DNA from: Candidatus Fermentibacterota bacterium
GTDB lineage: Bacteria > Fermentibacterota > Fermentibacteria > Fermentibacterales > JCC-6
DNA length: 35,898 nucleotides
NCBI GenBank assembly: GCA_003644925.1
Contig: QNDS01000005.1
Location: forward strand, 1 to 35,898
Reading direction: 5' to 3'
The notes below the pieces were generated by a model, which worked only from the letters and a program-made list of their open reading frames with translations, ran no database searches and had not been told where the DNA came from. The translations under genes were made by a program, and so were the position numbers. Shown here piece by piece: positions 20,277 through 20,527 of the stretch (the first letter of the stretch is position 1; the number at the start of each line of letters is the position of its first letter).

Positions 20277-20527
20277 TGTGGATAAGTATGTGGATAACTT
20301 GGGGGTAAAATTTTAACGCCATTTATTATCCCCATTTCATCCCCTGTTTATCTACAGCCATTGTGGATAATTTCGGGGATTTGGGGATAACAAAAAAACA
20401 AATTGTCTCAAGTAAAACATCTCTCCGTACACAATGTTTACACATGTTATGTACTCTATCCACAGGCTCTACTACTACTACTATTTATATAAATAAATAT
20501 AGTAATAATAGTAGAGCCTGTGGATAA
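20277..20527. other. Putative phage replication origin: DnaA-box cluster with nested palindromes
   Basis: TGTGGATAA at 20277-20285, 20289-20297, 20362-20370 and 20519-20527; TTATCTACA 20348-20356; CTATCCACA 20456-20464; near-matches TTATCCCCA 20326-20334 and TGGGGATAA 20382-20390; 28-bp-arm palindrome 20457-20526. Confidence 0.75.

Follow-up and report, generated by a model that had tools for sequence, protein, structure and literature searches.

We analyzed a stretch of 35,898 bp (hereafter, the window), which is contig C5 of a 3.62-Mb bin of 492 contigs; the same sequence region is present in the IMG/VR contig IMGVR_UViG_3300013101_000041. The window is a tailed-phage contig of siphovirus-like type, encoding a terminase, portal, prohead protease, capsid, head–tail adaptors, tail tube, and tape measure; the nearest terminase relative is MW202577. 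Its recombination module comprises, in order, a cytosine methylase, RecT, a PD-(D/E)XK nuclease–FtsK fusion, a protein with DnaA domain IV only, and RusA. Among the window ORFs scanned, no match to replicative helicase, primase, polymerase, or initiator families was found, and several small ORFs are without assignment. The fusion is a single 663-aa protein (17961–19952) that joins a PD-(D/E)XK exonuclease to an FtsK/SpoIIIE motor, and it is common to two IMG/VR phages (L054 and L055, 52–57% identity). Elsewhere in the window, a block of sugar/nucleotide-transfer genes (21203–26721; LicD-like, cytidylyltransferase, methyltransferase-like, and glycosyltransferase) possibly serves surface or DNA modification, and a gene for ParB_N plus an N6/N4 methylase (27493–28594) is seemingly split into overlapping frames (27493–28428 and 28358–28594), which appears to be a frameshift, a sequencing error, or decay.

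The gene for the DnaA-domain-IV-only protein (DnaA-IV; 19957–20274, + strand) encodes 105 aa from its ATG, with the frame open from a TTG at 19858. The protein matched Pfam PF08299 (Bac_DnaA_C; 5.3e-9, 36.4 bits, cut-off 31.5), and DnaA domain IV chains in the PDB matched it only at E = 0.05–0.68; no AAA+ domain was found in it. On the other side lies the gene for the RusA-like Holliday junction resolvase (20542–20925, + strand; phrog_1682, 1.3e-34), and both flanking genes are thus those named in the original prediction.

The gap of about 270 bp between these two genes (267 nt folded) holds a cluster of DnaA boxes, and every box that had been predicted there was present in its place. Exact boxes (TGTGGATAA) start at 20277, 20289, 20362, and 20519, the first two (20277–20285 and 20289–20297) reading TTATCCACA on the − strand, and non-exact boxes start at 20326 (TTATCCCCA), 20348 (TTATCTACA), 20382 (TGGGGATAA), and 20456 (CTATCCACA). 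With one mismatch or less allowed, the whole window contains 21 box sites (shuffles: mean 9.7, maximum 19), eight of which fall within 251 bp, whereas no 251-bp stretch in 60 dinucleotide-shuffled versions of the window held more than three; the gap cluster is far above chance. The window has six exact boxes, and every one of them is intergenic. The two that lie outside the gap are at 13781 and 16928, and the latter is paired with a near-match at 16908, the pair (16908–16936) immediately preceding recT; these sites are possible promoters regulated by DnaA or DnaA-IV. A promoter and terminator scan gave no signal above shuffles.

Two inverted repeats organize the cluster, both of them anticipated by the original prediction. 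The first (20326–20390) is nested, with TTATCCCCA (20326), ATCCCC, and TTATCTACA (20348) opposed to TGTGGATAA (20362), GGGGAT, and TGGGGATAA (20382); its ends pair over 13 nt (92%), and a fold with RNA parameters gave nested stems of 9+6+9 bp. The second is a palindrome of 71 bp (20457–20527), whose arms (20457–20490 and 20493–20526) are 88% complementary across a 2-nt gap and, at 34 nt, slightly longer than the 28 bp claimed for a 70-bp palindrome. The 267-nt gap folded with z = −8.8, and none of 200 shuffles was equally stable, but no T-run terminator was found. A skew inflection had also been predicted; instead, cumulative GC skew climbs almost throughout the window, with no inflection at the gap. 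Since every large gene is on the same strand, which masks skew, this says little for or against an origin.

On the + strand, the palindrome reads TATCCACA-GGCT-CTACTACTACTACTA-TTTATATAAATAAATA-TAGTAATAATAGTAG-AGCC-TGTGGATAA, so that in each arm a DnaA box is followed by a GC-rich spacer of 4 nt and by five DnaA-trios. In the left arm, the box CTATCCACA (20456–20464, + strand, one mismatch) is followed by the spacer GGCT (20465–20468), whose length is the commonest among the listed genome loci described below, and by (CTA)5 on the + strand, that is, five 3'-GAT-5' trios on the − strand (20469–20483; consensus in PMC8287927 and PMC7561715). In the right arm, the exact box TTATCCACA (20519–20527, − strand, no mismatches) and a spacer of the same length (20515–20518; AGCC on the + strand, GGCT on the − strand) adjoin the trios TAGTAATAATAGTAG on the + strand (20500–20514), which read 3'-GAT GAT AAT AAT GAT-5'. 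The trio strand is therefore − in the left arm and + in the right, and the two modules face each other across a shared AT-only centre (20484–20499), a candidate DNA unwinding element. By nearest-neighbour energy, no other 30-bp stretch of the 35.9-kb window is as unstable as 20481–20510. The arms are identical across the box core, the spacer, and the first two trios; the differences are at the initial base of the left box, at position 1 in the third and fourth trios (C vs T), and in the AT-only centre, and both mismatches within the trio arrays are of a kind that trio degeneracy allows.

Bacterial oriC contains a basal unwinding system (BUS; Pelliciari et al. 2021, PMC8287927; Richardson et al. 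2019, PMC6669920), which is defined by a box with at most two mismatches, a spacer no longer than 16 bp, and three or more 3'-NAN-5' trios with the consensus 3'-GAT-5', GAT being the commonest trio next to the box (PMC8287927). In the palindrome, the boxes carry one (left) and zero (right) mismatches, the spacer is 4 nt in both arms, and each arm has five trios, of which the first two are GAT in both. The polarity is that of the retrieved chromosomal loci and of the 5'-tail rule (PMC8287927), as well as that of E. coli oriC, where the box, in the sequence read directly, is oriented toward the unwinding element in the same way. The trio run is also of the same kind and polarity as the C. difficile trio element (5'-CACCTACTACTATTACTACTATGA; PMC7561715). 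A strict motif (box, 2–14 nt, three YTA) was found in the 3.62-Mb bin only in these two arms, and 60 shuffles produced neither a BUS nor a mirrored BUS. Judged by its sequence, then, the 71-bp palindrome is two opposed BUS modules, a more specific description than the paired boxes of the original prediction, which had missed the DnaA-trios and with them the explanation of most of the palindrome.

We investigated the distribution of such modules in other genomes. We scanned 84,980 genomes for a box with trios and opposed trios and obtained at least 117 loci, which are a sample rather than a census and support no claim of prevalence; related species are counted separately among the 117 listed, and the loci are non-independent. 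Within this list, dnaA or dnaN was detected by tblastn in 87 loci, and the first trio most often lay 4 nt from its nearest box (67 of 117), the bases between them usually being GC-rich, e.g., GGCC. A second box (0–1 mismatch) within 34 nt past the opposed trios faced inward in 17 of the listed loci and outward in two, which indicates that the mirror arrangement is no by-product of box-rich DNA. At least five mirrored loci adjoin dnaA and/or dnaN (Moraxella L131, Atribacteria L130, a Bacillota L097, Fuchsiella L102, and Saganbacteria L060), and a Treponema locus (L163) has a dnaA match; others, including three of TM6/Dependentiae (L122, L161, and L155), had no dnaA or dnaN match in the fetched stretch. 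Spacers in mirrored loci are mostly unequal and non-complementary, so that conservation concerns two opposed protein sites and not a hairpin.

Among viral sequences, a search of IMG/VR for the mirrored pattern in its exact form, with spacers of 4 nt, returned this contig only, and a less regular second example of the mirrored arrangement lies on a 4.4-kb viral contig (L174). A box with four trios, the single-module pattern, matched 52 IMG/VR stretches. With the two arms of this contig counted separately and earlier loci pooled, a BUS lay amid at least three boxes in 41 of 53 instances, on about 40 viral contigs, and neither dnaA nor dnaN was detected in the fetched stretches of these 41. Clear phages, as judged by terminase, portal, major head, RecT, or endolysin, include L178, L213, L234, L219, L214, L180, L231, and L235. 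Some single-module matches, which lie inside long ORFs with one box, are probably due to chance. Two further viral stretches are recorded here as observations: in L031 (about 1812–1875), a BUS-like stretch, TTATCCACA followed by CTA repeats, together with reverse boxes, lies inside an open frame, as if an origin lay within an initiator gene, and in the phage contig L176 (about 8600–8800) a BUS stands beside four closely spaced CTGTGGATAAC boxes.

The DnaA-IV protein itself may recognize a slightly altered site, to judge from its helix-turn-helix motif (NRHHSTI vs GRDHTTV in E. coli); TTATCCCCA/ATCCCC half-sites are present in the nested repeat. The closest syntenic relative, L055, encodes a DnaA-IV with a diverged motif (NRDATAI); no DnaA-box cluster was found in L055, which carries a short TTGTCCCC...GGGGATAC inverted repeat just 3' of the DnaA-IV gene. 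From these two cases, we would guess that phage DnaA-IV reads CCCC-type sites. A search with the protein recovered the window contig only, and a two-sequence profile added L055, too few for an analysis of co-evolution between protein and site. None of nine other phage-like records (L054 and eight with trio-type matches) had a DnaA_C match, which indicates that a BUS origin does not depend on the DnaA-IV protein. Conversely, L055 has the exonuclease–FtsK, DnaA-IV, and RusA genes without a box cluster, and the origin is therefore not fixed to this gene set. The RusA relatives in IMG/VR (L005–L009) had no box cluster and unrelated gaps, and the nucleotide sequence of the gap gave only short, chance-like matches to phage and plasmid records.

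Taken together, the gap is probably a tailed-phage replication origin opened by host DnaA, whose core is two facing BUS modules around one AT-rich unwinding element. In favor of this reading we count the box cluster, a strict BUS in both arms with chromosomal polarity and 4-nt spacing, the least stable centre, the recurrence of mirrored modules in bacterial loci, several of them identified as oriC through dnaA/dnaN, and of BUS in other phage contigs, and the lack of helicase, primase, polymerase, and initiator matches among the window ORFs scanned; the lack of a GC-skew switch, the missing box cluster of L055, and the different motif of the bin count against it. From the sequence organization, we infer binding, opening, helicase loading, and bidirectionality as follows. 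Host DnaA would bind the outer boxes and extend inward onto the trios on opposite strands, the DnaA filaments would melt the AT centre, and two helicases would be loaded in opposite directions, one per strand, so that theta replication would proceed in both directions. The boxes farther upstream, together with the nested repeat (20326–20390), may help gather DnaA. The phage DnaA-IV, a box-binding domain without an ATPase domain, would bind these or similar sites as a regulator or competitor, leaving the opening to host DnaA.

Of the two functions originally predicted for the gap, a replication origin is well supported by the sequence, but a partition-type site has no positive evidence: ParA was not matched in the window ORFs scanned, and the sole ParB_N match is fused to a methylase. 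The strongest rival is a one-sided DnaA origin, in which DnaA is loaded by a single module and an inverted duplication produced the palindrome, leaving the second arm unused. B. subtilis does manage with one trio strand while DnaD handles the other (PMC10201434), and an inward-facing second box is absent from 100 of the 117 listed chromosomal BUS loci. However, both arms here obey the box, spacer, and trio rules and differ only at permitted trio positions, the first box base, and the centre, and mirrored modules with non-complementary spacers in unrelated bacteria argue for selection on two sites. We regard the one-sided reading as rather unlikely.

A regulatory or host-takeover site, at which DnaA-IV would repress its own region or the boxes would titrate host DnaA with no origin present, fits the DnaA-IV gene directly upstream and the intergenic position of the six exact boxes that the window contains. 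Neither repression nor titration requires trios, a GC spacer at the usual distance, or a centre of lowest stability, however, and the same module occurs without a DnaA_C gene in other phage contigs, making this reading improbable. Still less can be said for a purely structural palindrome, a hairpin or cruciform for termination, packaging, or single-strand initiation, which we consider very improbable: the folding predicted for the gap is strong, but a perfectly symmetric pair of protein sites would fold regardless, no T-run terminator was found, and in the other mirrored modules the spacers are non-complementary and often of unequal length, so that pairing is not conserved. The locus also differs from a bacterial chromosomal oriC, since it lies on a phage contig with DnaA domain IV only and rusA as neighbours in place of dnaA/dnaN or another standard neighbourhood, and from an iteron origin of the lambda O or Rep type, since its repeats are DnaA boxes and no initiator family was matched in the ORFs scanned.

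Similar to the BUS of bacterial oriC, the proposed phage origin has a box, a GC-rich spacer, at least three trios, and AT-rich DNA beyond, with equal polarity and spacing, but it has two mirror-image modules with one shared AT-rich centre and does not lie between dnaA and dnaN. As in B. subtilis oriC, DnaA would be organized by trios on one strand; there, DnaD serves the second strand (PMC10201434), whereas in the phage a box and trios are present for the second strand as well. Plasmid and phage origins such as P1 oriR and RK2 likewise contain DnaA boxes outside a chromosome, but they rely on iterons and a Rep initiator with DnaA only assisting (PMC10797057), whereas the phage gap is without iterons and Rep was not found. 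A lambda-type origin (O protein iterons) also lies beside recombination genes; unlike it, the phage locus showed no initiator gene with internal iterons, and its sites are DnaA boxes and trios. In the open-licence literature, where absence is not proof, we found neither a phage BUS nor a mirrored arrangement of BUS modules described.

Mis-binning of phage contigs is frequent. We considered whether the origin had been copied from the bin and rejected this, as the bin's dnaA–dnaN gap has a different, weaker motif (TATCCACATGTATAATAACTATTATTA). Two members of the bin's genus carry a motif similar to the bin's, and unlike that of the palindrome, in the same gap; the bin may therefore not be the host.

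How the helicase is loaded on the second strand has been described as unclear (PMC10201434; PMC13326638), and in B. subtilis DnaD has been proposed to bind opposite the trios (PMC10201434). One box–trio module per strand would be a simple geometric answer to the loading of the second helicase and an alternative to DnaD. A broader proposal, which we advance tentatively and at somewhat less than even chances, is that DnaA assembling on the trios of both strands, with symmetric loading of two helicases and no second-strand recruiter such as DnaD, defines a distinct class of origin, the mirrored BUS, which serves some chromosomes as well as this phage, and that many phages of uncultivated bacteria use BUS-type origins captured from or converged on host oriC. 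The phage fragment, 71 bp long and nearly symmetric, lends itself well to testing, and mirrored BUS in bacterial loci of several phyla deserves a census of its own. The phage contigs that carry BUS modules suggest that dependence on host DnaA by way of a complete opening element of chromosomal type may be commoner in phages than the searched literature describes.
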